IMG/VR virus record: IMGVR_UViG_3300021197_000662
Coordinates: 1 to 59,826 of that record
Source: a virus
Direction: 5' to 3' (one strand)
Length of the DNA: 59,826 nt
Shown here in pieces: positions 2,316 to 38,872 of the stretch. A program made the position numbers and the translations under genes. Numbering within the stretch: position 1 is the first letter of the stretch; each line of letters begins with the position of its first letter. The notes beneath the pieces are model-generated. The model searched no databases and was not told the DNA's origin. It saw only the letters and a program-made list of their open reading frames with translations.

Positions 2316-5300
2316 ATGGCAAACGTCTATGCGGATAGCAAGCGCACTGGAAAAAGTTACCTAGTTAGTATTGCTGGGGACAGCCCAACACCACAAGAGT
2401 TAGCTGACATTGAGCGGTATGTCGATGCCGTTGAAGGCTTTGGTGCGCCTACCACAGTTCAAGAGTCTCCAGATGAGGTGGGTAATCTCATTGACTTCAC
2501 TCAAGGCGCTGCATCAGGTCTTGCAAGAAGCATTGCCGATGTTCCCGGTGGATTGGCGTCTTTAACTGCTGCTGGTTTAAGAAAATTTGTACCCGGAGAT
2601 CAGGGCGAAGACAGCATAGAGTCTTTTGGTCAAGGCATAACAGATGCTGCTCGTACCGGCATTGATTATGTTATTGGGACTCCAGACGACAACATTGCTG
2701 GAAAAGCTGGACAGGCAATAGGCTCTATTGGGTCTTACTTCCTTGGTGGTGCTGGTGTTGTCAAGGGGCTGGGGGCTTTAGGCAAAAGCGCCTCTGCACA
2801 GAGAATAGGCGGTACGGCAGCAGCGGCTACAATGGGTGTGGGTCAGGGAGCGCAAAATCAAGTAGACAGAATAGCTAGATTTATAGAGCAGGGGGGCGAA
2901 CCTACAGAAAAAGACTTAGCCATCCTAACTGGTGGCCTTATTGGGGCGACTGAGGCGCTACCTATAAGCAAAGCTTTTGGCGTAATAGCAAACATTTTCA
3001 AGAAGGTCCCGAAAGACGTAAAAGAAAGTGCAGTTAAAAAATTAATACCAAGGCTAAAGAGTGCTGCTAAGGTTGGTGGGTATGAGGCCATTCAGGAAAG
3101 CGCGGCTGCTTGGCTTCAAGACCTAACGGAGCAAGGTCTTTATAATCCTGATTTAGATATCTCTATGAGCGCTTACAAAGATGACGCTATCTATGGTGGC
3201 GGGGCTGGCGCAACCTTTAACTTCCTTCTTGAGACTGTGGCTGGCAGAAGAGTCAAAAAGGTTTTAAAGGCTCAAACTCAACTGGTATTGGATCAAAGGG
3301 AGGAGGGTGAAGAAGTTAAACAACAAGTTGAGAGGGCAAAAGGCTCTCTTAATGAGCCTGAAGCCCCTGAAGCTATAGCTGGGTTGCTTACTGGGCCAAC
3401 AGAAGAAGGCGGAGTTAAAGACACTACTGATTTTACAGTAGGCGCTGATGGCGATGCGGTGAGAGAGCGTGACGAATTTGGAAGGCCCATAGATGAATCT
3501 ACTCCTTTTGAAGATGATTTAAAGAACAATCCAAAAGAGGCAACAAAGGCCTTTAATGAAAACTTAAAGGACTTAGGACTTAATCAGGACCAAGAGCAGC
3601 AAGCCTTAGCAGAAGCCGCAAGGGAAACACAGCTTGGCGACCAGCCAGTAGATCTTTCGGAGCTTTCTGAGGGAGAGTCTGCCACTCTCAGGCAATCTCG
3701 CGTTAGAGCTGGCGTTCAGGACGTAGACGGTCCAACTAGCTTAGATGAAATCAAAGATGTACTTGGATTACCCACATACAACAGAATAGGTGCAAGGCAA
3801 AAGCCTAGAACTTGGCAGAAGGCTCTTTCTGAGGAAGAGAAATCTTTAGCCGCTGAAGACGCTGCTATTAAAGAAAAGGTTATAGACAACAAAGACGCTG
3901 CAAAAGTTTTGGTTGAGTCTGGAGAGGTCTTAAACAAAGACGGAACAGTTAACAGATTAAAGCTGCAAAAGGCTTTATCTCTTACCGTCCAGCAGGCTCA
4001 AGCGTTAATCAATAACATGAAAACAGAAGGTGTTGTTGAGCCTGTAAGCAGAACAAAGGTTAGGCCAGCTAATCCACCTACGCCCCCTACGGAGCAGCAG
4101 GAAGCCGAGAGAAGTGCAGAGACTGTCCTTAATGAGCTTACCCGAATGCGGCAAGAGCAGCAGGAGAGAATAAACGCAGCCAAGGAAGTCGGAGTCGGTA
4201 GTCAGGCTGAACAGCTTGCTATTGAGGATGCACAGAGAGCTATTGACGAGCTTGATGCAAAGATCAAAGTTCAGGAAGTAAAGCTCTCTGATGTTAGAGC
4301 GTCTGCTCCACCCAGACCATCAGCCTCTCAGGCAAGAAATAACCAAGCCCTTGTTGTTCAAGAAGAAGCTGAAGGGGCAAAGCCAACAGAAGAATACAAA
4401 AGAAGAATAAACGCTGTAGCCAATGCTTTGCGTAAGTATTTGTTTGGCCTAGGGCTGAAAGATGTTGATTTAGTAAGTCAGAATGTAATTGACTACTCAG
4501 AGACTATTAACCCTGATGGGTCGAAAGACATAAATATTACTGAGGGGTCAGAGCAGGCAGGGGAAAACGCTCGCAGGATTATCACCCTTGCCATGGAGAT
4601 ATATGATCCAAACTTGAGCGAGGCTGAGCTTGAGCAAAGACTGGCTGGCGTCCTAAACCATGAAATAATACACGCTATGAAGGGCCTAGGTCTATTCACT
4701 GATGCTGAATGGGCTAGCCTTGTTAAGGCTGCCGAGAAAAGAAAATACGCAAAGACTATTAATGGCAGAACTATTGATAGAGAATACACCTTCTTGGATA
4801 GAGCGGAGTTTATGTATCCAGAAGACACTCCTGAGTCTCAGCAAGAAGAAGCTGTAGCTGAGATGTTTAGAGCATATGCAGAGGGCCGCATCAAAGTAGG
4901 CGGCAAGCCCAAAGGCTTGTTCAGTCGCATGGTCAGGTTTATCAAGTCAATATTTAACGCACATGCCGATGCTGGGTTCACTAGCGCAGCAGAGATATTT
5001 GATGGCATCAAGTCTGGAAAGGTTGGCCGTAGACAGCGTAACATAAGAGCCGCATCAATTGCTCCTGCTGGCGCTAAATACTCAACTGCTGGGGTTCGTG
5101 GCACGAACATTCGTGCTGGCTTCTTAATTCCTGAGCGAGGAAATGTAGAGCGTATACAGCAGTCATTCAAAGATGTGACAAAGCGCATACCTCAGCTTAC
5201 TGAGGCTGCACAAAAATTGTCCGATGGTACAATTTTATATGATGAGTATGATCGCTTAGTAAATGAGTTTAAGCCAATCATTCCATATGAAACAGTTCCT

Positions 5301-8300
5301 GCTCCAGCTACAAATGAAGAAATGGAGGGAGCTTTAAAATCAAATCAAATCCCTAAACTAAACATGCTTTCAAAGGATATGGATGGTCTTGTGACTGGCA
5401 TGAGACTAGATGTAAGCGCCTATAGGGATTACGGAGTTTGGGTCCCAACTATACATCATGGGAAAAGAAGCAACGTTACAAATAAGGACGGAAAAAACCT
5501 AGCTAATTTAACTATCTCTCATCAATCAACAGGGATAATAGAGAACGCAACATTTGAAGCACCGCAGGGCAGGGCATTAGCTGTTGCTAAGGGAGCGCAG
5601 AAGGGTCCGTTTTCTACAATAGAGGGGACTTACAAACACGCCACGCCAGATCAATCTTTTGCTATCGCACAGCAAATGATGAACGACCCAACAGTTGTGC
5701 AAGTTGGCTTTGATCCTGAGCGTCATTCATATTTTTATGACCGCATGACAACACAGCCTGTAATTAGTGCTGATCTGGTTGTTCAAGTCGGACCGCTAGT
5801 TCTTGCTAAAAACCCTGTGTTTGGAAACAAGTCAGAGTTTAAATTTTCTGTACGCACTATAAGAAACATGCCGACCAACCTAATCGGCCCAATACCAATA
5901 GTGCATGACGTAAAGACCCAGTACATGAACTCTGTTGGCCTTCCGAACAGAAGGCAGGGTGAGTATGTAGAGGTTGATCTTCCGTTGGCAACTCGTATAG
6001 CCGCCGCCTTTGAAGAAGCAGAAGACAGGCCTAACGATCCAGATGTGCAAATTGCTTATCAAGCCATGGCAAACGAGACTATGGCTCAGTGGCAGTTTAT
6101 AAAAAACACCGGCCTAGATGTAGAGTTTATTAAGGAAGACATGGACAACCCTTACCCCAACGGGTCTAGGGATGTCCTTATGGACATAAGAGACAACAAT
6201 CATATGTGGGTCTTCCCCACTGATACTGGTTTTGGTCAGGCATCAATAACTGCTGAGGATGAGGCTGCCAATCCTCTTCTTGCCAAGGCAGATGAAACTG
6301 TTGATGGCATAGACATGCGTATCAATGATGTGTTCCGCATAGTGCATGATTACTTTGGTCATGGGCTAGAGGGAGCAACGTTTACAGCGCGTGGTGAAGA
6401 AAACGCTTGGCAATCTCATGTGAGGATGTATAGTCCTACAGCGGCCAAGGCTATGACTACGGAGACAAGAGGACAAAACTCTTGGGTTAACTTTGGCCCA
6501 GTTGGGGAGCAAAATAGAGAAAACCCTGCATCTACAGTGTACGCAGAACAGAAGATAACCCTTCTTCCTGATTTTGCTGTTAACGAAGGTGTAGCACCAG
6601 ACTTGGAGTCTACAAATGAGCAAGAAAGAATTAATCGAAGCATCAAAGGATCTCGTATCTCAGGAGATGCAAGGTCAGACAGAGCAAGAGTCGATAGAGT
6701 CGCAACAGGATCGGGCAATGTCAGAGGCGAGATTCCAGAGGGCCAAGAAGCTGACTTTGGAACGCCGAAGCCAACAGTTGATGAAAACGGCTTAACTCGC
6801 CTAATACATTACTCTCCTATAGTGGGGCTGGACACCATCAGCCCAAGAGAGCAATTAACAAATAACAGGATGCGTGGAGATGAGCGGGAACGTAAAGTAA
6901 AGTTCCCTAACATCTATCAAGCTAGGTCTTACTTTGGCATGAATGTCGGTGAGGCAAATGGGTACAATCAAGAGGCCACTGTAGGCAATAACGTATACGA
7001 AACTCAAGTACCAGTTGATTCATTATACGACTACGACAAAGACCCAGAAGGCTTTATTACCAAAGCGGCTAATTCCGTTGATGACAACATCATGGAAAGA
7101 ACTTGGAACAAGCCCAAGCAATTCATAACAACAACAGCCGAAAAATCCATAAAGGATGCTGGTTACTCTGGTTACTGGAGTAACTCAAGAATGGGTATGG
7201 TTGCGGCCATGTTCAATGATACTGTTGTGAAGCCAGAAGGCTCTATAGAAAAGCCCGTAAAAAGATCTGCAAGAACAGCAACCATAGATGTACCTAATGT
7301 AAATAACGTTGACGGCGCTAGGATTAGCCAAAGGTTCCCTAAAGGCGCTTCAGCGACAGAAGACCCTATAGAAGAAATACTTCAATTGGGCGCTAATGAT
7401 ATAATTAACAATCCTAAACTGCTTGCCAGAACCGCCGAGATTGTACGAGGGTACAATATAATAACTGAAGAGGAGGCAGCGTCACTTGGCGACAAGGAGT
7501 TGGTCGAAACCCTTATAGAGAGACTTTCTTCTAACCTTGAGTTTGTTTATGACAACGTCCCAGAGGCAACAAGAGAAAGATCAAAGCTTTGGTATGTCGG
7601 CGCTAACAGAATAGCAAATGAAAACGCCTTAAAGTACAGCGAAGAGTCTGGCTCCCCGGTATCTATTGAGCAAGCCGCTGCTGTAATGGCTGCTCTAAGT
7701 CCACAGAAGGACTGGTATCAGAATGTCTCTCTAGGCGAGCGGCTTATAGACATATACAAAACCAAAATGGATTTTGTGCCGACCCCTGAGATGGAAGCAA
7801 CTGCTCGAAGAATATTTCCAAAAGATGTGCATCAGCCAATGCTTGATATTATATTCATGCAGGGGAGAAACATGCCCCTTTCTGAGTACGCCGATGCGCC
7901 CCTTCTGCAAGCTATGTTTATACGATTGTATGATGAAACATATAATGACCGTGGATACTACATCGTTTCTCCTGATGGACAGAACATTGGCTGGGCCAGA
8001 AATGCAAATGGGTCTAGGTCAAGGGTTGCTTGGGGTTCTAATAAAGAGATAACAAAGGCAGTTATGGCTTTAACCAATCCTGAATCAATCTCTTCGGAAA
8101 TGGGCGACAGGCATAAGGTTAGAAACTTCTTTAATAATATAGCTGCTCCATTCTCTCAGGACGGAGATGTAACATCGGATACTCACGCTGTAGCCGCTGC
8201 TCACCTAAAGCCATTGTCTGGCTCGTCTACAGAAGTTCATCACAACTTCGGCACATCACCGGTAGCTTCAAAAAGAGATGAGAACTGGAGAGGGGCCGTT

Positions 8301-11300
8301 TCAAACTCAGCTCCTCTCGGAGTTAAGGGTACATACGCCCTTTATGTTGAGGCACACAGAAGAGCAGCAGCCAGAAGAAATGTTCTCCCTAGAGAGATGC
8401 AGTCTATAACATGGGAGGCTGTAAGGGGATTATTTACCCCAGCGTTTAAGCAAAACAAAAACAATGTTAGGATGATTGACCGTATCTGGAATGACTTCAG
8501 GTCTGGTCAGAAAACAATAGAGGAAGTAAGAGAGGAAGTTTTAAATGAAGCAGGTGACAAAGGAAGATTTCGTCCACCAAGCTGGGAAGGACCCGATAGT
8601 GGAAGCATTAGCAGCCCTGAACTTGCCGTTGACCCGACAGAACTATCTGGAAATGTCGTATCCAGAAGCAATCCCATCGATTACAGCGGAGATGGAGTCG
8701 GAACTACCGGAGGAACTCCTAATGCCGAAACAAAATATAGTAAGCGGTCGGTAAGATACGTCCCATCTTTAGAGCAAGGAACAGGACCACTCATATCAAA
8801 CAACGCCATGCTGAAGGCGTCAGAGCAATCTTACGATAGGATAACGTACAACAACGTAGCTAGAGTTCTTGGAAAACTTTACTCAAAGGTGTTTGACGAA
8901 AAGAAGGCACGGGCTTGGGAAGCTAAGACAGAACGCTTTGTGACTAAGTTTCAGGATGCAATGCTTCCTGTGGGCAAGCTTATGGACGAACTAAGGTCTG
9001 ATGGGCTTAGCATTCCAGACGCAATGGATGTCTACATGAGGGAAGAGCTTGCACAGGGCCTCATGGGCGCTAGGCTAGACGAAAACAAAGCTAATTTATA
9101 CGAGCCATTAACAGACACTATAAAGCAGATAGAAGTTGATCAGGCAAAGATTGATCAACTTGCAAACGTGTCTAGATTTTTTGAGGACGCCAGAGGGGCT
9201 TATGATCCAAAGCTAGCCATTGCTGATGCTTATCTTTATGCACTCCACGCGAAAGAAAGAAATGCATATGTTCTGGCTAGAAACAAAACAGGGCTTGGGT
9301 CAGGAATGTCAGACGGAGAGGCTGATGCGATACTAGCGTGGGTAGACTCTCTGAATGTCCAAAGCAAAAACACCTTAAACGGCATAAAAAATACCGTAGT
9401 ACAAATTGTACAGAACACAAATGACGTAAGAAGAGAAGGCGGCCTTATGGCTGAGGAGTACAGCTTCTCAAACTATGTGCCTTTGCGAGGCATACTTGAC
9501 CCAGAAGAAGACCTTTCAGAGGATCTGGATAGCGTTCCTAGGATGGGAAGAAAGAAAAGAGACAACCTTTACGGAGGCACGGCTTATCAAGACCCAAGAA
9601 TAACAACGGGTAGGGGAACTGAGTACGCTGAAGACATTATAGCAAATGTCATGGTTCAGAACTCTAGGTCTATTGTAGCGGCTGAGAGAAACAAAGTCGG
9701 TCAGGCATTCTTAAATATTATTGATCCAAAGATCATGGACCCTAATGCCGAGTATATAATGGAAAAGGATAACAGGGACGGCATAGCAATTATAGTCGAT
9801 AAAGTAACTCCTGACATGCAAGAAAATGTTCTAAAGGTAAAGGTCAATGGCAGACAAGAGCCTTACAATATTCTTATAAGAGACAACAGGGTCGCCAGAG
9901 CCATGAGAGGCGCTGGTGGGGATGGAATCGAAAGAGGCGGCGCTGTAGTCAGATATATGGCAAAGTTCAACAGATACCTCTCAAACATTAACACAACTTG
10001 GAACCCAGAGTTTGCCATCACAAACTTTTTCAGGGACTTGGAGACTGCTGGGGTAAACATAGGTCAGTACGATCAAGAGGGTATTAGCAGAGAAGTAATG
10101 AAGAACGCCGCCCCTGCCGTAAAGGGAATCCTCGCTGTCACCAGAGAAGGAGGGTTTGAGGGGTATGACAAAACAAACTGGACAGACGTATTTAATGACT
10201 TTGTTTCTGCGGGCGGAAAGAACTCTACCAACCAAGTTGATAGCGTTAAAGATCAAATGGAAAGCATCAAAAAGGTTCTTGATGAGGTTTCCAATAACAG
10301 CATAAAGGGTAAGCTGGGACTTTCTAGGAATGGCTTTCTTTATAAAATTGGCGGGTTCTTAGACGCTTACAACACGGCTGTTGAAAATGGAGTCCGAGTT
10401 GCAACATATCATGCCCTGTTAAAGAGAGGGTTTAGCAAAGACAGAGCAGCTCAAGCAGCCAGAAACGTAACAGTAAACTTTGCAAAGCAGGGGGAAGAAA
10501 AAGCCCTTATGAATGCTTTGTTCCTTTTCTACAATGCATCAGTGCAAGGATCTATGGCCCTGTTTAACGCTGGCATAAGGTCATCAAAGGTACGCAATAT
10601 ATGGGGGGGGATGATTATTGCTGGCGTCCTATTGGATCAATTTGCCGCTGCGGCTTCAGGAGACGAAGACGAGGACGGTGTAAGCGACTACGATGAGCTA
10701 GGTCAGTACACTCTTGAGCATAACATAATATTCCCTACATTTGGGCTTGTGGAACAAAAGTTTTTAAAAATACCTTTAGGGTACGGGCTTAACACGGCAG
10801 TCAATCTAGGTCGATCCATGAGCAGGGTTCAGCGCGGAGAGTACACCCCTGCTGAAGGCTTTAACTCTACATTTGGCACATTAGCAGAATCTCTTAACCC
10901 TCTAGGGGACACTAATTGGGAAAATGCATTAATACCTACTGTAGGCGATCCGTTTATAAGCTTAGCTGTAAACAAAGACTACAAAGGCGACCCTATCGTA
11001 AAGGAAGCATCTCCCTTTGGTGTCCAGAAGCCAGACAGCCAACTGTACTGGTCTAACACAAGCGCACTATTCAAGGGTATAGCTAGGGCTGTCAATTCTG
11101 GCACAGGCGGCACAGAGATAACCCCCGGAATGATAGACATTTCGCCAGAAACGATAGACTTCTGGGCGCAATACTTTACTGGCGCAGCAGGAGCATTTGC
11201 TCTTAGGACTGCTGAGTCTCCCTCAAAGACAATTGAGTCATTCAGAGGCGACCTTGAAGGTGATCTAATAAGGGAAATACCATTTGCCAGAAAGCTATTC

Positions 11301-11636
11301 ACCTCTCCCTCTTCAAGAGAGGACACAGGCCAGTTTATCGAAAACAGGGATAAGGTTCTAAGGGCGGCAAAGGAGCTTCAGTTCTCTTTGCAGTCTCAAG
11401 ACCCAGAGAGAGCCTCTGAGATAAGAAAAGAGTACGCCAACGAGTTAAAGATTTATGGTCAGCTAAAGGCCATGAACAACTACAGAAACAAGCTTGTCAG
11501 AAACAAGAACAAAGTTCAGTCAAGCAAGACAATACCAGAAGAGCAAAAGAAGGCTATCATAAGAAGCCTAAGAGACAAGATACAGGTAATAGAAAAAAGA
11601 GCCGCAATCATTATGAGGAATGCTGGCGTAAGGTAA
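2316..11636 (+). CDS. Giant polyvalent virion protein (3106 aa) with metallopeptidase-like and other toxin/enzyme-like domains
   Basis: This is the largest gene in the window and has a clear ribosome-binding site (AAAGGAG). The N-terminus carries Gly/Ala-rich hydrophobic stretches. An HEIIH zinc-protease-type motif lies at residues 782-786. Around residue 1343 is VHDYFGHGLEG, a His-rich conserved patch. Around residue 1496 is LIHYSPIVGLDTISPREQL, resembling ADP-ribosyltransferase-like segments found in phage proteins. A further conserved domain starts near residue 1759. Near residue 2557 is a TTWNPEFAITNFFRDL segment typical of very large phage virion proteins. At about 2783-2795 is an acidic DEDEDGVSDYDEL loop like a calcium site. 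The order fits the polyvalent proteins thought to be injected with phage DNA. DarB-like antirestriction or internal ejection roles are both possible; specific activities are inferred. Confidence 0.75.
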   Translation: MANVYADSKRTGKSYLVSIAGDSPTPQELADIERYVDAVEGFGAPTTVQESPDEVGNLIDFTQGAASGLARSIADVPGGLASLTAAGLRKFVPGDQGEDSIESFGQGITDAARTGIDYVIGTPDDNIAGKAGQAIGSIGSYFLGGAGVVKGLGALGKSASAQRIGGTAAAATMGVGQGAQNQVDRIARFIEQGGEPTEKDLAILTGGLIGATEALPISKAFGVIANIFKKVPKDVKESAVKKLIPRLKSAAKVGGYEAIQESAAAWLQDLTEQGLYNPDLDISMSAYKDDAIYGGGAGATFNFLLETVAGRRVKKVLKAQTQLVLDQREEGEEVKQQVERAKGSLNEPEAPEAIAGLLTGPTEEGGVKDTTDFTVGADGDAVRERDEFGRPIDESTPFEDDLKNNPKEATKAFNENLKDLGLNQDQEQQALAEAARETQLGDQPVDLSELSEGESATLRQSRVRAGVQDVDGPTSLDEIKDVLGLPTYNRIGARQKPRTWQKALSEEEKSLAAEDAAIKEKVIDNKDAAKVLVESGEVLNKDGTVNRLKLQKALSLTVQQAQALINNMKTEGVVEPVSRTKVRPANPPTPPTEQQEAERSAETVLNELTRMRQEQQERINAAKEVGVGSQAEQLAIEDAQRAIDELDAKIKVQEVKLSDVRASAPPRPSASQARNNQALVVQEEAEGAKPTEEYKRRINAVANALRKYLFGLGLKDVDLVSQNVIDYSETINPDGSKDINITEGSEQAGENARRIITLAMEIYDPNLSEAELEQRLAGVLNHEIIHAMKGLGLFTDAEWASLVKAAEKRKYAKTINGRTIDREYTFLDRAEFMYPEDTPESQQEEAVAEMFRAYAEGRIKVGGKPKGLFSRMVRFIKSIFNAHADAGFTSAAEIFDGIKSGKVGRRQRNIRAASIAPAGAKYSTAGVRGTNIRAGFLIPERGNVERIQQSFKDVTKRIPQLTEAAQKLSDGTILYDEYDRLVNEFKPIIPYETVPAPATNEEMEGALKSNQIPKLNMLSKDMDGLVTGMRLDVSAYRDYGVWVPTIHHGKRSNVTNKDGKNLANLTISHQSTGIIENATFEAPQGRALAVAKGAQKGPFSTIEGTYKHATPDQSFAIAQQMMNDPTVVQVGFDPERHSYFYDRMTTQPVISADLVVQVGPLVLAKNPVFGNKSEFKFSVRTIRNMPTNLIGPIPIVHDVKTQYMNSVGLPNRRQGEYVEVDLPLATRIAAAFEEAEDRPNDPDVQIAYQAMANETMAQWQFIKNTGLDVEFIKEDMDNPYPNGSRDVLMDIRDNNHMWVFPTDTGFGQASITAEDEAANPLLAKADETVDGIDMRINDVFRIVHDYFGHGLEGATFTARGEENAWQSHVRMYSPTAAKAMTTETRGQNSWVNFGPVGEQNRENPASTVYAEQKITLLPDFAVNEGVAPDLESTNEQERINRSIKGSRISGDARSDRARVDRVATGSGNVRGEIPEGQEADFGTPKPTVDENGLTRLIHYSPIVGLDTISPREQLTNNRMRGDERERKVKFPNIYQARSYFGMNVGEANGYNQEATVGNNVYETQVPVDSLYDYDKDPEGFITKAANSVDDNIMERTWNKPKQFITTTAEKSIKDAGYSGYWSNSRMGMVAAMFNDTVVKPEGSIEKPVKRSARTATIDVPNVNNVDGARISQRFPKGASATEDPIEEILQLGANDIINNPKLLARTAEIVRGYNIITEEEAASLGDKELVETLIERLSSNLEFVYDNVPEATRERSKLWYVGANRIANENALKYSEESGSPVSIEQAAAVMAALSPQKDWYQNVSLGERLIDIYKTKMDFVPTPEMEATARRIFPKDVHQPMLDIIFMQGRNMPLSEYADAPLLQAMFIRLYDETYNDRGYYIVSPDGQNIGWARNANGSRSRVAWGSNKEITKAVMALTNPESISSEMGDRHKVRNFFNNIAAPFSQDGDVTSDTHAVAAAHLKPLSGSSTEVHHNFGTSPVASKRDENWRGAVSNSAPLGVKGTYALYVEAHRRAAARRNVLPREMQSITWEAVRGLFTPAFKQNKNNVRMIDRIWNDFRSGQKTIEEVREEVLNEAGDKGRFRPPSWEGPDSGSISSPELAVDPTELSGNVVSRSNPIDYSGDGVGTTGGTPNAETKYSKRSVRYVPSLEQGTGPLISNNAMLKASEQSYDRITYNNVARVLGKLYSKVFDEKKARAWEAKTERFVTKFQDAMLPVGKLMDELRSDGLSIPDAMDVYMREELAQGLMGARLDENKANLYEPLTDTIKQIEVDQAKIDQLANVSRFFEDARGAYDPKLAIADAYLYALHAKERNAYVLARNKTGLGSGMSDGEADAILAWVDSLNVQSKNTLNGIKNTVVQIVQNTNDVRREGGLMAEEYSFSNYVPLRGILDPEEDLSEDLDSVPRMGRKKRDNLYGGTAYQDPRITTGRGTEYAEDIIANVMVQNSRSIVAAERNKVGQAFLNIIDPKIMDPNAEYIMEKDNRDGIAIIVDKVTPDMQENVLKVKVNGRQEPYNILIRDNRVARAMRGAGGDGIERGGAVVRYMAKFNRYLSNINTTWNPEFAITNFFRDLETAGVNIGQYDQEGISREVMKNAAPAVKGILAVTREGGFEGYDKTNWTDVFNDFVSAGGKNSTNQVDSVKDQMESIKKVLDEVSNNSIKGKLGLSRNGFLYKIGGFLDAYNTAVENGVRVATYHALLKRGFSKDRAAQAARNVTVNFAKQGEEKALMNALFLFYNASVQGSMALFNAGIRSSKVRNIWGGMIIAGVLLDQFAAAASGDEDEDGVSDYDELGQYTLEHNIIFPTFGLVEQKFLKIPLGYGLNTAVNLGRSMSRVQRGEYTPAEGFNSTFGTLAESLNPLGDTNWENALIPTVGDPFISLAVNKDYKGDPIVKEASPFGVQKPDSQLYWSNTSALFKGIARAVNSGTGGTEITPGMIDISPETIDFWAQYFTGAAGAFALRTAESPSKTIESFRGDLEGDLIREIPFARKLFTSPSSREDTGQFIENRDKVLRAAKELQFSLQSQDPERASEIRKEYANELKIYGQLKAMNNYRNKLVRNKNKVQSSKTIPEEQKKAIIRSLRDKIQVIEKRAAIIMRNAGVR

Positions 11637-20689: not shown

Positions 20690-21841
20690 CTAAGCCGCCA
20701 CCTCTATGCGTGTTGTTTCACCAAACGGTGCATCATTGCAACGCTCATCAGTTGATACCCAAAGCACCGGATAATCTGGCACACGATCAGGGAAATCGAA
20801 TATTCCCATGTCGGTCAGGTAAACAAAATTATCGACAGGCAAGCAATTATCATCGATGTATTTAAAGACCGGTTCTACTCGCGTACCGCCCCGACCATTA
20901 CATTCGATCTTGTCGATGATATCGCCCTGACCATATGTCTTGACCGACTGGATCTTGCTATCGCAAGTTATGACAGTAAGGCTCTTAGGCTTGTGATCTT
21001 CCGACATATTGTTGAGTTCCCCAAGGAATTGCTGGAGTTCAACAGTACCGACTGATCCGCTAGTATCAACAGCCACCACCACATCACCGACACCGATCTT
21101 GTCAACGGCTGGCATGTAGATGCCTTGAGTGTAGTAGACCTTTTTATTGCAACGCCTGAACGTGTAGTCATCAGGCTGATCACCACCGATAAAGCGGTTG
21201 AACACATCACGCCAGTCAACCTCAGACCGCCGCATTTTGTCGATCAGTTCTTTAAGCTTGCCCGATAGTTTACCGACAGCTTTTGCATTCGATGCTGCAA
21301 GCATCACACGCTGATCATTAGATGCCTTGGCCTGTTCTATTTCGGCCTTAGAAGGCTCACCACCATCCTTACCTTGCATCTCACCTACATCACCACCCCA
21401 AGGCTGCTTGGATGGCTTCTTGTCCTTTTCTAGGCGGTTTAACAGCCTATACACTTGAAGCCATGTCATCCCAGAATATTGAGGGTCATATAAACCGCCC
21501 TGTGGCATTTCCATACCGTCTTCTTTTAGGTATGCGTTTATCACATAATCCATTGCCATATTTTGCAATTCATGGTTCGTTGGCTGGCCATCAATTGTCT
21601 TGACTGGTATGCAATGGTTCAGCATCGCGTGACCCACCTCATGGGCTATGACAAACTGCAAACCTTTGTCAGTCAGGCTATCAGCAAACGCTGGGTTCCA
21701 ACGAATACATTTGCCATCGGTTGCCATAGTCGGGATCGTGTCATCTTCGATGAAGGGCAAGCCCAAGGTCAGTGAACCCCAGAACGGCTTGTCCAGTACA
21801 AGTCTAGTTTTTGCTCTCGCAATTTTGGTTTCTATATCCAA
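20690..21841 (-). CDS. Metallopeptidase-like/VWA protein (DUF2201 type)
   Basis: The 383-residue protein starts at TTG 21841 after GGAGATTTTGAA. Near the N-terminus is HEVGH (67-71), a zinc-metallopeptidase-type motif. The middle is charged. The C-terminal domain has VAVDTSGSVG, a complete metal-ion adhesion motif (Asp259, Ser261, Ser263) of von Willebrand factor A folds, then TDMGIFDFPDRVPDYPVLW. This two-part layout matches the DUF2201 family, which commonly accompanies MoxR-type AAA ATPases; such an ATPase is encoded at 22106 in the same operon. MoxR/VWA pairs remodel or activate other proteins, often inserting metals. The target here is unknown. It could also act against host proteins. 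Confidence 0.8.
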   Translation of the reverse strand: MDIETKIARAKTRLVLDKPFWGSLTLGLPFIEDDTIPTMATDGKCIRWNPAFADSLTDKGLQFVIAHEVGHAMLNHCIPVKTIDGQPTNHELQNMAMDYVINAYLKEDGMEMPQGGLYDPQYSGMTWLQVYRLLNRLEKDKKPSKQPWGGDVGEMQGKDGGEPSKAEIEQAKASNDQRVMLAASNAKAVGKLSGKLKELIDKMRRSEVDWRDVFNRFIGGDQPDDYTFRRCNKKVYYTQGIYMPAVDKIGVGDVVVAVDTSGSVGTVELQQFLGELNNMSEDHKPKSLTVITCDSKIQSVKTYGQGDIIDKIECNGRGGTRVEPVFKYIDDNCLPVDNFVYLTDMGIFDFPDRVPDYPVLWVSTDERCNDAPFGETTRIEVAA

Positions 21842-21852
21842 TTCAAAATCTC

Positions 21853-22062
21853 CTAATGTCTCTCATGGTCTTGATCTGAAAATTTACATGCAACATCTCT
21901 GCCTTTTGATCCGAAAACTACAATGTCGAGATCAGCATCTATATCACCATGCATTCTTTGATCATGGAAAAGGTGTATGAAATCGGGCTTGCCAAAAACT
22001 TTGATCGCGGCTGAAAATTCCGCATCAGTTCTGAACCCGACAAAATGGACTGATCTTTTCAT
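21853..22062 (-). CDS. Small hypothetical protein between MoxR and VWA genes
   Basis: The 69-residue product is not recognised. GGGAGATATACG precedes the ATG. It has a FVGFRTDAEFSAAIKVFGKP start and several Asp and His residues (DADLDIVVFGSKGRD). It is encoded between the AAA ATPase and the VWA protein and may belong to their complex. Confidence 0.6.
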   Translation of the reverse strand: MKRSVHFVGFRTDAEFSAAIKVFGKPDFIHLFHDQRMHGDIDADLDIVVFGSKGRDVACKFSDQDHERH

Positions 22063-22105
22063 CGTATATCTCCCGAAAGAATTGGGGGGAAAATCCCCCC
22101 CAGTT

Positions 22106-23119
22106 TTACAGCATCAATTCTTTGCCATCCGAAAGTAAGAACTTGCGGAATGCATCAGTCTTTTTAATGCTTGGTGTGCGGTTCATTGCATCCCTAATTG
22201 AGAACACCGCAAATTCTTTGTGCGGTAATCTTTTGAGATACTGAATGATATTGCCAATATTTTTATCGTTGGCTCGACTACTCAGAGCCGCAGAAACCGC
22301 ATAGCACACCGCTGGGTCTTCGGCGATTGGTGCGCTATCTGGGTTGGCAATCAGTGCATCAATGTCTGGGCAACTCTCGTAAACTTTTTTGTAGCCCATA
22401 AACTCAGCACATGCACCTCGCCCCACTTGACCTGACACCGCTTCGTTTTCGTTCACCGCATCAAGCTTGAAACCCATGATGGTATCGACACGCTCCCATG
22501 ATCTAGGTGAAGGGCAAGCATCAGCATCGCGATCAAACTTGTGCAGCAACTCTGGCCGAAAGCGCAGGAAGCCGGTGATCAAAGGCGATACCCCGACTGA
22601 ATTATAGTAGGCCACCGCGTCTTCTAGATCGCTGTCCACAGAAGTGAACAAAAGTCGATCCTTTACATGCGATGGGAGTTGATTTGTACCAGCACGATCC
22701 GACATTTTGTTGCCAGCACATACGATAGCCCAACCGTCAGGCAGTCTATGCTCACCAATCCTACGCTCATTAATTATGACCGCTGATATGTTGAGGCAGG
22801 CAGTCGGGGCTTGCGCTAATTCATCAAGGAACAAAATTCCTTCGCCCTCAGTTGGCATCCAATCTGGACGCAGGCGTTTCATTCCATCACCATCATTCAC
22901 CAGCCAGCCTGCAAGCTCGCCAGCATCGTACTGGGCAAGGCTGACCGTCTTTAATGATATCCCACGATCTTCAGCGATTTGCTGAACGATGGTAGTTTTA
23001 CCAAGACCGGCTGATCCGACAAGGTATGGGATTGGCCGTTGTGCATCACGCCCATTTGAATGCTTCATTTGACTGTCGATACATGCCTCGACTATGGCTC
23101 TTGCTTGCGATATACGCAT
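22106..23119 (-). CDS. MoxR-like AAA+ ATPase
   Basis: The 337-residue protein starts at 23119 after GTGGAGATTAG. It has Walker A GSAGLGKTT (35-43), Walker B ILFLDEL (95-101) and the sequence GWAIVCAGNKMSDRAG, a sensor-1/arginine-region layout typical of MoxR-family AAA+ ATPases. These form hexamers and work with VWA-domain proteins to remodel substrates; the VWA partner is at 20690. A perfect GTAC palindrome lies 22 bases upstream of the start (23141-23156), so the gene may head a regulated transcript. Whether it serves phage assembly or host takeover cannot be told from sequence. Confidence 0.85.
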   Translation of the reverse strand: MRISQARAIVEACIDSQMKHSNGRDAQRPIPYLVGSAGLGKTTIVQQIAEDRGISLKTVSLAQYDAGELAGWLVNDGDGMKRLRPDWMPTEGEGILFLDELAQAPTACLNISAVIINERRIGEHRLPDGWAIVCAGNKMSDRAGTNQLPSHVKDRLLFTSVDSDLEDAVAYYNSVGVSPLITGFLRFRPELLHKFDRDADACPSPRSWERVDTIMGFKLDAVNENEAVSGQVGRGACAEFMGYKKVYESCPDIDALIANPDSAPIAEDPAVCYAVSAALSSRANDKNIGNIIQYLKRLPHKEFAVFSIRDAMNRTPSIKKTDAFRKFLLSDGKELML

Positions 23120-36357: not shown

Positions 36358-36611
36358 CACGCAATTACAAATCAGAGTACAAGAAGTATCAGTCCTCTGA
36401 GAAGCAAAAGACAAGAAGGGCTGGCAGAAACACGGCAAGGAATAAAATGACCGCTGCTGGCAAGGTAAAAAAGGGTGACGGAAAAGATGTGGCCCACAAG
36501 AACGGCAACCCAACAGACAACCGCCGTTCTAACCTAAAGGCTGTGTCTGCTGCAAAGAACAGATCATTCAGGCGCACCTCTACTGCGCGTAAGGTAAACA
36601 GGAGAGCGTAA
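36354..36611 (+). CDS. HNH-like small basic protein
   Basis: The 85-residue protein is basic, with DVAHKNGNPTDNRRSNLKAV, the shape of the HNH/AP2-associated DxxHKNGNxxDNRxxNL motif found in marine phages. In true HNH nucleases the first position is usually Asp-His; here Ala precedes His-Lys-Asn-Gly. It may therefore bind DNA without cutting or be a small nuclease needing a partner. It overlaps both neighbours. Confidence 0.65.
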   Translation: MTRNYKSEYKKYQSSEKQKTRRAGRNTARNKMTAAGKVKKGDGKDVAHKNGNPTDNRRSNLKAVSAAKNRSFRRTSTARKVNRRA

Positions 36612-37273
36612 TGAGAGCAGCAAAGATGATGTGCGGTCAGCGTAAAAAGCCAATCGCTATGAAAAAGGGCGGTAACCCTGTTGCTAAGACGTTAAGAAGT
36701 CCATCACTAAAACCAAAGGTGGTAAAGCCTAAAAAAGGAAAGGGGTCTTACAATAGAAAGGCCCCTTCAGTTAAGGCAATGAAGGATGGGGGTAAAACTG
36801 TCAAATCAAAAAAAGTAAAAACACCAAAGGGTACTCCTAGCTTTAACATTGCAAAAACGTTTATGGGTAAGAAGCCTGTTAGTTACTCAAAAGCCAGAGC
36901 ATACGATACTGGTGGAGAATTACAGAAGATGAAGTCTGGGGGAGAAGCAATAAGATCTTCAGGAAAGAACATGCTTGAGGGGATTCGCTCTAGAACTCCG
37001 AAGACTGGAGAAAAAGCAAAAGCTAGAATGGAGTCACAAAAAAAGTATGTTGAGGAGCAAAACAAAAAACCTCCAAGAAGCATGAAGTCTGGAGGCAAAG
37101 CAAAGTCTACAGTGAATAAGGCTGGAAACTACACCAAGCCCACAATGCGTAAAAAAATATTTAACAGAATCAAAGCTGGCGGTAAGGGTGGCGCTCCGGG
37201 TCAGTGGAGTGCGCGTAAGGCTCAAATGGTAGCCTCTGCTTACAAGAAGGCTGGTGGAGGATATAGAGACTAA
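36611..37273 (+). CDS. Lys-rich protein with GQWSARKAQ C-terminal motif
   Basis: The 220-residue product is very basic. It contains repeated KSGG/KKGG-type units and ends in APGQWSARKAQMVASAYKKA followed by GGGYRD. That C-terminal motif recurs in small proteins of marine myoviruses and podoviruses, from memory. The long low-complexity stretch resembles histone-like or virion DNA-condensing proteins. It ends one base into the oxygenase-like gene's start. Confidence 0.6.
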   Translation: MRAAKMMCGQRKKPIAMKKGGNPVAKTLRSPSLKPKVVKPKKGKGSYNRKAPSVKAMKDGGKTVKSKKVKTPKGTPSFNIAKTFMGKKPVSYSKARAYDTGGELQKMKSGGEAIRSSGKNMLEGIRSRTPKTGEKAKARMESQKKYVEEQNKKPPRSMKSGGKAKSTVNKAGNYTKPTMRKKIFNRIKAGGKGGAPGQWSARKAQMVASAYKKAGGGYRD

Positions 37274-38352
37274 TGCCGCCAAGGAATCACAAAAGCTGGA
37301 TGCTAGAGCCTAGTGTAGAGTATATAAATTCACTTATATATTCTGATCATGGTTTGTATGAGCAAGAGATTGAAAACATCTTTTCCAAGGTGTGGGTTCC
37401 TATGTGCCATAAATCTGAATTATCAGAGGCAGGTAATTTTAGAACTACTTCTATTGCGGGAAAACTTGTAATAGCTATAAACAATGGCGATTACATTCAA
37501 GGGTATATTAACACAGATAAACAAACTGCACCTTCTGGGTCAATGTCTCGTGTTGAATTTTTAATGGAAGACTTTGTAAAACTTCATACTGAAGTGAAAC
37601 ACGGCGGTATGGTCTGGGTTACACTAGACCCCAACCCAACTCAGAGTGTAGATGAGTGGACGGGTGGTGCATTCGACTGTATTGCGGATGCTATCGACAC
37701 TGAAGAGATGGAAGTCTTTCACTACCACAAGGCAGTCATCGACACTAACTACAAGCTGTGGCACGATACCAACAGCGAGTTCTACCACGATTTCATGCAC
37801 TACTTTAATCGTGTGTCAGGGTTTAACGATGAATACTTTGCCAGAAAAAATATACCGTTTGATAACGGTCACGTTAACGTCAGTAGCTTCACGGTTAACT
37901 ACGAGGAGTACGATGGCTTTGAGGATAGGGGAGAGCTTAGTTTCCCTAACCTCCCTCCCAATCAGTGGTACATGGTTGATCTGTTTCCCGGATTTAATTT
38001 TAATCTTCGTGGCAGCGCTTATAGAAGCGATAGCGTTACGCCTCTTGGCCCAAACAAAGTCCTCATTGAGTTTCGTGGGTACGGCCTTAAAAAGGACACT
38101 CCAGAGGAGCGTCAGACTCGCATAAAGCATCACAACAGTATATGGGGTCCTTTTGGTCGCAATCTTCACGAAGATCTAATTGGAGTATCTGGCCAAGGCA
38201 CAACAATGCGTACTGGTACAGAGCCTCGCAACATATTGCATGGAAGGCATGAAAACGGAACGATACACGATGAAGTTGGAATGCGTCATTATTATGCAGA
38301 GTGGAGCAAGTGGATGGGGGTAGAAGCAAGCAATCCTGTCTTAGCGGCCTAA
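37273..38352 (+). CDS. Atypical Rieske-type oxygenase alpha-subunit homologue lacking the Rieske cluster (MsmA-like)
   Basis: The 359-residue protein is collinear with ring-hydroxylating/methanesulfonate monooxygenase large subunits. N-terminal FSKVWVPMCHKSELSEAGNF matches the entry to the Rieske domain. The stretch that should hold Cys-x-His and Cys-x2-His (about 78-112) is short and has no Cys; the only Cys are 45 and 136. The catalytic domain keeps YHDFMH with His172 and His176 and an Asp near 301, a plausible mononuclear iron site. Without the [2Fe-2S] centre it cannot take electrons in the usual way. It may act with another donor, be a regulator or be a virion protein. HMO-2011 is reported to carry an atypical MsmA. 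Confidence 0.8.
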   Translation: MPPRNHKSWMLEPSVEYINSLIYSDHGLYEQEIENIFSKVWVPMCHKSELSEAGNFRTTSIAGKLVIAINNGDYIQGYINTDKQTAPSGSMSRVEFLMEDFVKLHTEVKHGGMVWVTLDPNPTQSVDEWTGGAFDCIADAIDTEEMEVFHYHKAVIDTNYKLWHDTNSEFYHDFMHYFNRVSGFNDEYFARKNIPFDNGHVNVSSFTVNYEEYDGFEDRGELSFPNLPPNQWYMVDLFPGFNFNLRGSAYRSDSVTPLGPNKVLIEFRGYGLKKDTPEERQTRIKHHNSIWGPFGRNLHEDLIGVSGQGTTMRTGTEPRNILHGRHENGTIHDEVGMRHYYAEWSKWMGVEASNPVLAA

Positions 38353-38395: not shown

Positions 38396-38872
38396 ATGAT
38401 TGCAGAAACCTTGGCAGGAATAGCGCTTGTAAAAAGTGCAGTAGACGGAATAAAGGGTGCTATAGGTACGGCCAATGATATTGGCGATATCGCTAGTCAA
38501 ATAGACTCATTGTTTGCAGGGCAGAAACAGGTAAATGAGGCTAGAAATAGGAAGTCTGGGGTTTCTTTAGTAGACCAGTTCGGCGTTGAGAACGTTGCTA
38601 GAGAAACTATAGACGCAAAGATAGCAGCTGAAAAGTTGCAAGAAGTAGCCACCATGGTTGACATGCGCTTCGGTCACGGCACTTGGCGTGGTATAGTGGA
38701 CGAAAGAGCCAGAAGAATAAAAGAAGCAAAGGCAGCCGTTGCCGCTAAACGTAAAGCCGATCTGTTAAGGCAGAACGAAATAATGGAAAACATTAAGATG
38801 GGTACTATTGTTTGTGTCTTAATAATGATCGCAGCCGGTCTTTTTATTACTGTGGTAGCGTCAGTTAGCTAG
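38396..38872 (+). CDS. Virion-associated single-membrane-helix protein
   Basis: The 158-residue protein starts after AAGGAATAAAA. It begins IAETLAGIALVKSAVDGIKG, an amphipathic start seen in many cyanophage and pelagiphage proteins, continues with a helical charged region and ends with MGTIVCVLIMIAAGLFITVV, a strong membrane helix. A tail-associated membrane protein is possible. It lies between the oxygenase-like gene and the operator promoter at 38877. Confidence 0.6.
   Translation: MIAETLAGIALVKSAVDGIKGAIGTANDIGDIASQIDSLFAGQKQVNEARNRKSGVSLVDQFGVENVARETIDAKIAAEKLQEVATMVDMRFGHGTWRGIVDERARRIKEAKAAVAAKRKADLLRQNEIMENIKMGTIVCVLIMIAAGLFITVVASVS

Follow-up and report, generated by a model that had tools for sequence, protein, structure and literature searches.

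A phage-borne Rieske-less relative of MsmA as the putative catalytic half of a split SAR116 MSA monooxygenase

Why should a phage carry a Rieske oxygenase gene in which every ligand of the Rieske cluster is missing? The question is raised by an open, intact reading frame (359 aa, ATG start; positions 37,273–38,352, + strand) in the virus record IMGVR_UViG_3300021197_000662, whose whole analysed stretch of 59,826 nucleotides is called the window here. A first-pass annotation, made from the letters alone, noted that HMO-2011 is reported to have an atypical MsmA and proposed that the loss is common to both, and the published record bears this out: the HMO-2011 ‘MsmA’, many GOS and virome ‘MsmA’ sequences and one of the two IMCC1322 copies lack the CxH-X26-CxxH motif that occurs in all proven degraders of methanesulfonate (MSA), an absence left unexplained (Henriques and De Marco 2015, PMC4433239). 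Papers on SAR116 genomes mention msmA and say nothing of a Rieske defect (PMC8547437, PMC12262181).

The window protein, referred to below as B, is 76% identical to the ‘MsmA’ of Puniceispirillum phage HMO-2011 (ADW08429.1) and 72–79% identical to proteins encoded on SAR116 chromosomes. Its sole cysteines are C45 and C136, CxH and CxxH pairs are absent, and Pfam returned Ring_hydroxyl_A alone (PF00848, E 1.5e-07), with no Rieske domain (PF00355); intact MsmA controls matched both families. The gene was thus rightly read at the outset as a Rieske oxygenase relative without Rieske ligands. Aligned with the intact MsmA of the L121 locus, B has no counterpart for 45 residues, namely the cluster-bearing part of the Rieske domain in intact MsmA; all four ligands are missing. 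What is left is a vestigial Rieske domain with no ligand kept in the alignment (residues 13–124; 37,309–37,644, +), followed by a catalytic domain (residues 125–346; 37,645–38,310, +) that is recognized by its identity to MsmA (median 72.5% to intact proteins), by an AF2 model and by Foldseek.

The mononuclear iron site had been thought kept, and it is: the ligands H172 (37,786–37,788, +), H176 (37,798–37,800, +) and D301 (38,173–38,175, +), together with E169 (37,777–37,779, +), are invariant across all 48 aligned Rieske-less sequences. In CntA, 44 Å separates the Rieske cluster from the iron of the same chain, electrons pass from one subunit to its neighbour, and the bridging glutamate E205, which accepts them from the neighbour's Rieske cluster, is essential (PMC7948474). 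Because the ExxH motif is common to both proteins, we infer that E169 is the equivalent of E205. Structure prediction, which had been suggested as a check, gave a Rieske oxygenase fold (model m086ca2fea30f, built from an alignment of 53 diverse sequences; pLDDT 87, pTM 0.88). The top 50 PDB matches listed by Foldseek were all Rieske oxygenases or their relatives, at a TM of about 0.7, and included the alpha subunits of terephthalate dioxygenase, NagGH and CntA; sequence matches in the PDB were also Rieske oxygenases, and every NCBIfam match lay far under the cut-off. Set against a canonical Rieske oxygenase, B therefore has the fold, the 2-His-1-carboxylate site and the bridging acid, and lacks the [2Fe-2S] ligands. 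The CxH-X26-CxxH motif of MsmA is missing from B and in SAR116 sits on a separate protein, the A half described below.

A frameshift or assembly error hiding the Rieske motif was considered and rejected, since HMO-2011 and the IMG/VR relatives are in the same state: the motif occurs in 0 of 155 viral loci, with ExxHxxxH and HED[LIV] present in 154, the sole exception being a frame-broken copy (L047). In the larger set of 213 viral loci CxH-X26-CxxH was likewise never found. With an intact SAR116 MsmA as query, each of the 80 best viral matches was B-type, and no viral A half emerged when a single A protein or an alignment of A proteins served as query, the viral matches again being B-type.

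We then compared selection between domains. Median pN/pS for the N- and C-terminal domains, respectively, was 0.407 and 0.067 in phage B, 0.146 and 0.056 in cellular B, 0.168 and 0.496 in A, and 0.252 and 0.232 in intact MsmA; because synonymous sites are near saturation, these values serve as a contrast between domains alone. Read in that way, selection is reciprocal, A and B each being constrained in the domain that it retains, and the catalytic domain of phage B appears constrained about as much as that of the host. That B might be a decaying captured gene without function, as loss of the cluster and the one frame-broken copy among 155 could suggest, is refuted by this pattern, with a catalytic-domain pN/pS of 0.067 and iron motifs in 154 of 155 copies, which also disposes of the pseudogene reading. 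B has a metabolic homologue in the host and is under purifying selection in phage genomes, as an auxiliary metabolic gene should be. The vestigial domain of the phage copies (residues 13–124, L001–L082) recombines: 38 of 142 pairs were mosaic, that is, their catalytic domains were closely related yet their N domains were <70% identical, and the domain is seen to be swapped next to near-identical catalytic domains. Between phage and host B, identity is 54% in the vestigial domain and 92% in the catalytic domain.

A scan of bacterial genomes separated MsmA-type proteins into two groups. The intact group (about 410–430 aa, CPH-X26-CMFH) is 50–58% identical to the window B; the Rieske-less group (about 362 aa, 72–79% identical) is found mainly in SAR116. 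Within the same SAR116 cluster as B lies a second MsmA-like gene, the A half, which encodes a protein of ~796 aa with an intact Rieske domain (CPH-X26-CMFH), a lost iron site and a C-terminal half that is an FAD ferredoxin reductase; it stands where msmA would be, next to genes of msmE, msmB and msmC type. In a single alignment, all 62 intact MsmA proteins have every Rieske and iron-site ligand, and E169 is invariant in them. The 13 A halves have each retained four of four Rieske ligands, and D301, E169 and H172 are gone from every one of them; one has a histidine in the H176 column, but inside a decayed, gapped region. All 48 B proteins keep D165 in addition to the four invariant residues named above, and no Rieske ligand. 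Because sorting into classes relied on the Rieske motif and a [DE]xxHxxxH motif, D301 and Pfam provide independent checks, and Pfam agrees: A matches Rieske and the reductase, with Ring_hydroxyl_A under the cut-off, B matches Ring_hydroxyl_A without Rieske, and intact MsmA matches both. In SAR116, then, two proteins of one genome have complementary losses of metal sites, as is to be expected of a split enzyme; as read from the aligned ligands, this shows that an msmA duplicate underwent reciprocal loss.

The two halves occur together. Among 136 genomes of the Puniceispirillales (SAR116), 12 have both A and B, the apparent host of HMO-2011 being one of them, none has a single half, and one (G019) has intact MsmA and neither half (Fisher p 2e-17 for co-occurrence, uncorrected for kinship). 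No intact MsmA was seen among the 12 split genomes, in one of which (G010) the A half is in fragments at contig ends. Outside this set, B was found without A in three cases. One is a short MAG contig that starts within msmB (L083). In the other two, B is on contigs assigned to bins of Hellea and Rickettsiales (L097 and L098) that contain no A half; L098 has genes for ribonucleotide reductase with matches to phage families, and among the neighbouring genes of either contig nothing pointed clearly to phage or host. These could be viral contigs or hosts that break the A/B pairing. Two apparent two-MsmA genomes (L127, L104) were rejected, the second match being a stand-alone reductase.

The cluster in which the halves lie is informative as to substrate. 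In the L085 locus a divergent gene for an NMT1-like binding protein is followed by the A half, an MsmB-like protein, an MsmC-like Rieske ferredoxin, a 281-aa ORF, the B half, LysR, TauE, a PanB-like protein and formate-THF ligase; of these, TauE, a sulfite exporter, and the ligase fit the conversion of MSA to sulfite and a C1 unit. From ancestry and this neighbourhood we take MSA to be the probable substrate. The 281-aa protein (L085 6951–7796, and homologues), which has no Pfam match, directly precedes B in SAR116 clusters, and distant homologues (about 30%) lie near intact msm clusters. In three related loci with an intact msmA (L107, L112, L121), the intact gene holds the place of the A half, which makes it probable that B is the newcomer and A the resident copy. 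The apparent host of HMO-2011 (G031, a single 2,753,527-bp contig), which we take to be Ca. P. marinum IMCC1322, has both halves. Its B gene is the nearest to that of HMO-2011, and its A half is the least decayed of all, with E169K, H172Q, H176K and the D301 region deleted. In the genome that is probably IMCC1322 (L195 7912–12502), a dmsA-like molybdopterin oxidoreductase and two ORFs lie between msmC and B, in agreement with the dmsABC genes reported near msmA (PMC8547437).

We believe, with a probability of roughly two in three, that the window gene encodes the working catalytic half of a split SAR116 MSA monooxygenase that would receive its electrons in trans from the host A protein. Supply in trans is feasible in principle, because in Rieske oxygenases each cluster already feeds the iron of the adjacent subunit instead of that in its own chain. 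A and B would assemble into one enzyme, in which electrons would pass from NAD(P)H through the FAD reductase and the Rieske cluster of A to E169 and the iron of B, possibly with the ferredoxin MsmC as an intermediate; the iron of B would then oxidize MSA to formaldehyde and sulfite. Phage B made during infection would join host A, MsmB and MsmC and keep up or raise MSA oxidation to the benefit of the phage, and it would be inoperative without the host half. Joint action of A and B is judged the most likely arrangement because the acceptor side with E169 survives in B and the donor side in A, together with the reductase, and because a split chlorophyllide a oxygenase works. It is also in line with the lack of B in the SAR11 phages HTVC027P and HTVC023P, relatives of the window phage. 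Two things sit less well with it: a ring of alternating A and B does not fit a three-subunit ring, and it is odd that the vestigial domain of the phage copies should diverge and recombine if it touches a conserved partner. Of the ‘maintained new function’ proposed for the gene at first, maintenance stands (catalytic pN/pS about 0.07); a new function is unsupported for a protein that is a normal member of the SAR116 msm cluster, and the old reaction, shared between two proteins of which the phage supplies one, is likelier.

If B is active, its electrons might instead come straight from the small Rieske ferredoxin MsmC, docking where deletion of the cluster region has left a pocket, with A as a mere relay. 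The gene for MsmC lies in the gene cluster of A and B, and the 45-residue deletion removes the cluster-bearing part of the domain. We nevertheless consider this distinctly unlikely, given that the Rieske domain of A has remained MsmA-like (X26 spacer, pN/pS 0.168), as would be expected of a domain that docks to a catalytic one, and that A and B co-occur without exception in the Puniceispirillales set.

The far greater divergence of the vestigial than of the catalytic domain between phage and host could also mean that phage B is a decoy, competing with host B for A and thereby stopping or redirecting MSA oxidation. A decoy needs no iron ligands, bridging acid or near-whole catalytic domain, yet all of these have been kept over saturated synonymous distances, and we hold this explanation to be very improbable.

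The setting of the gene in the phage genome bears on a further explanation, that B has taken on a role in the virion or in regulation that has nothing to do with oxygenation. As the first-pass annotation observed, B lies among late basic genes: the surrounding ORFs are rich in Lys and Arg and lie downstream of those for terminase, portal and capsid. Upstream is a Lys-rich 220-aa ORF (36,611–37,273, +) whose stop overlaps the B start by one base; its C-terminal part matches phrog_17747 and it is present in the B loci of several phage lineages. Downstream, a 158-aa ORF with a hydrophobic C-terminal segment (38,396–38,872, +), for which Pfam and PHROG searches gave no match, occurs in most B-containing phage loci. 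The late position of B in at least two phage types and its basic neighbours favour a virion or regulatory role, at which the early reading had hinted. Such a role is unsupported, the same Rieske-less protein being found on chromosomes, in SAR116 msm clusters, and we regard it as very doubtful, since the catalytic domain is as conserved among phage copies as among chromosomal ones (median identity 95% versus 93%) and the two interleave in the tree.

The window terminase is nearest to the HTVC027P/HTVC023P type, and B is carried by several phage types, including HMO-2011 relatives and that of the window. The segment 36,611–39,163, comprising the Lys-rich ORF, B, the 158-aa ORF and a Lys-rich 86-aa ORF, recurs in HMO-2011-type contigs. 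The window head genes being of HTVC027P/HTVC023P type, gene content marks this segment as a mobile late cassette, exchanged among types of phage. The window phage probably infects SAR116. Two other features of the window are recorded here: an ORF of 3106 aa (2316–11,636), and a DUF2201 VWA/metallopeptidase protein that adjoins an AAA ATPase (20,690–23,119, − strand), a MoxR/VWA-like pair that is unusual for a phage.

In phylogenies, B forms a single clade (support 100/99) inside the alphaproteobacterial MsmA tree, as does A (97/93). Phage and cellular B interleave; HMO-2011 branches first (99/91) and the copy of its apparent host next. This placement allows, without showing it, that the split began in phages and that the catalytic half returned to SAR116 chromosomes. 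A captured msmA would have lost its Rieske domain while the host enzyme supplied electrons, after which the resident SAR116 msmA would have lost its iron site and fused to a reductase. We think such an origin unlikely; were it true, the obligatory division of a host enzyme between two proteins would have been brought about by a virus.

B resembles MsmA in its ancestry, its complete set of iron-site residues, its catalytic domain and its location in host msm clusters; unlike MsmA, it has lost the Rieske cluster with 45 residues and needs electrons from another protein. The HMO-2011 protein is of the same kind, but is carried by a phage of another type. CntA has the same ExxH motif and is the model for electron transfer between subunits, but has both centres on one chain, is an alpha3 enzyme and acts on quaternary ammonium compounds. 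The closest precedent for a Rieske oxygenase spread over two proteins is the Micromonas chlorophyllide a oxygenase, MpCAO, in which, according to work by Kunugi et al. in 2013, the Rieske centre and the iron site reportedly reside on different chains. The two-chain enzyme has been reconstituted in active form in vitro (PMC9615114); it is eukaryotic, belongs to another Rieske oxygenase family, has no reductase fusion and involves no virus. We found no earlier description of a split A/B SAR116 enzyme in the literature searched, which lay mainly outside subscription journals. The absence of the motif in HMO-2011 was already known, and what appears to be new is the host side, namely the A half, the co-occurrence and the reciprocal loss.

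The Rieske-less ‘MsmA’ of HMO-2011, marine viromes and GOS thereby gains a concrete explanation. Given the importance of MSA among marine sulfur compounds, care is needed where such genes are annotated as complete MSA monooxygenases or taken as evidence of viral MSA oxidation. If the split is as we propose, SAR116 would offer a natural system in which intersubunit electron transfer can be studied half by half, and phages would be able to carry half an enzyme, with the host providing the remainder.
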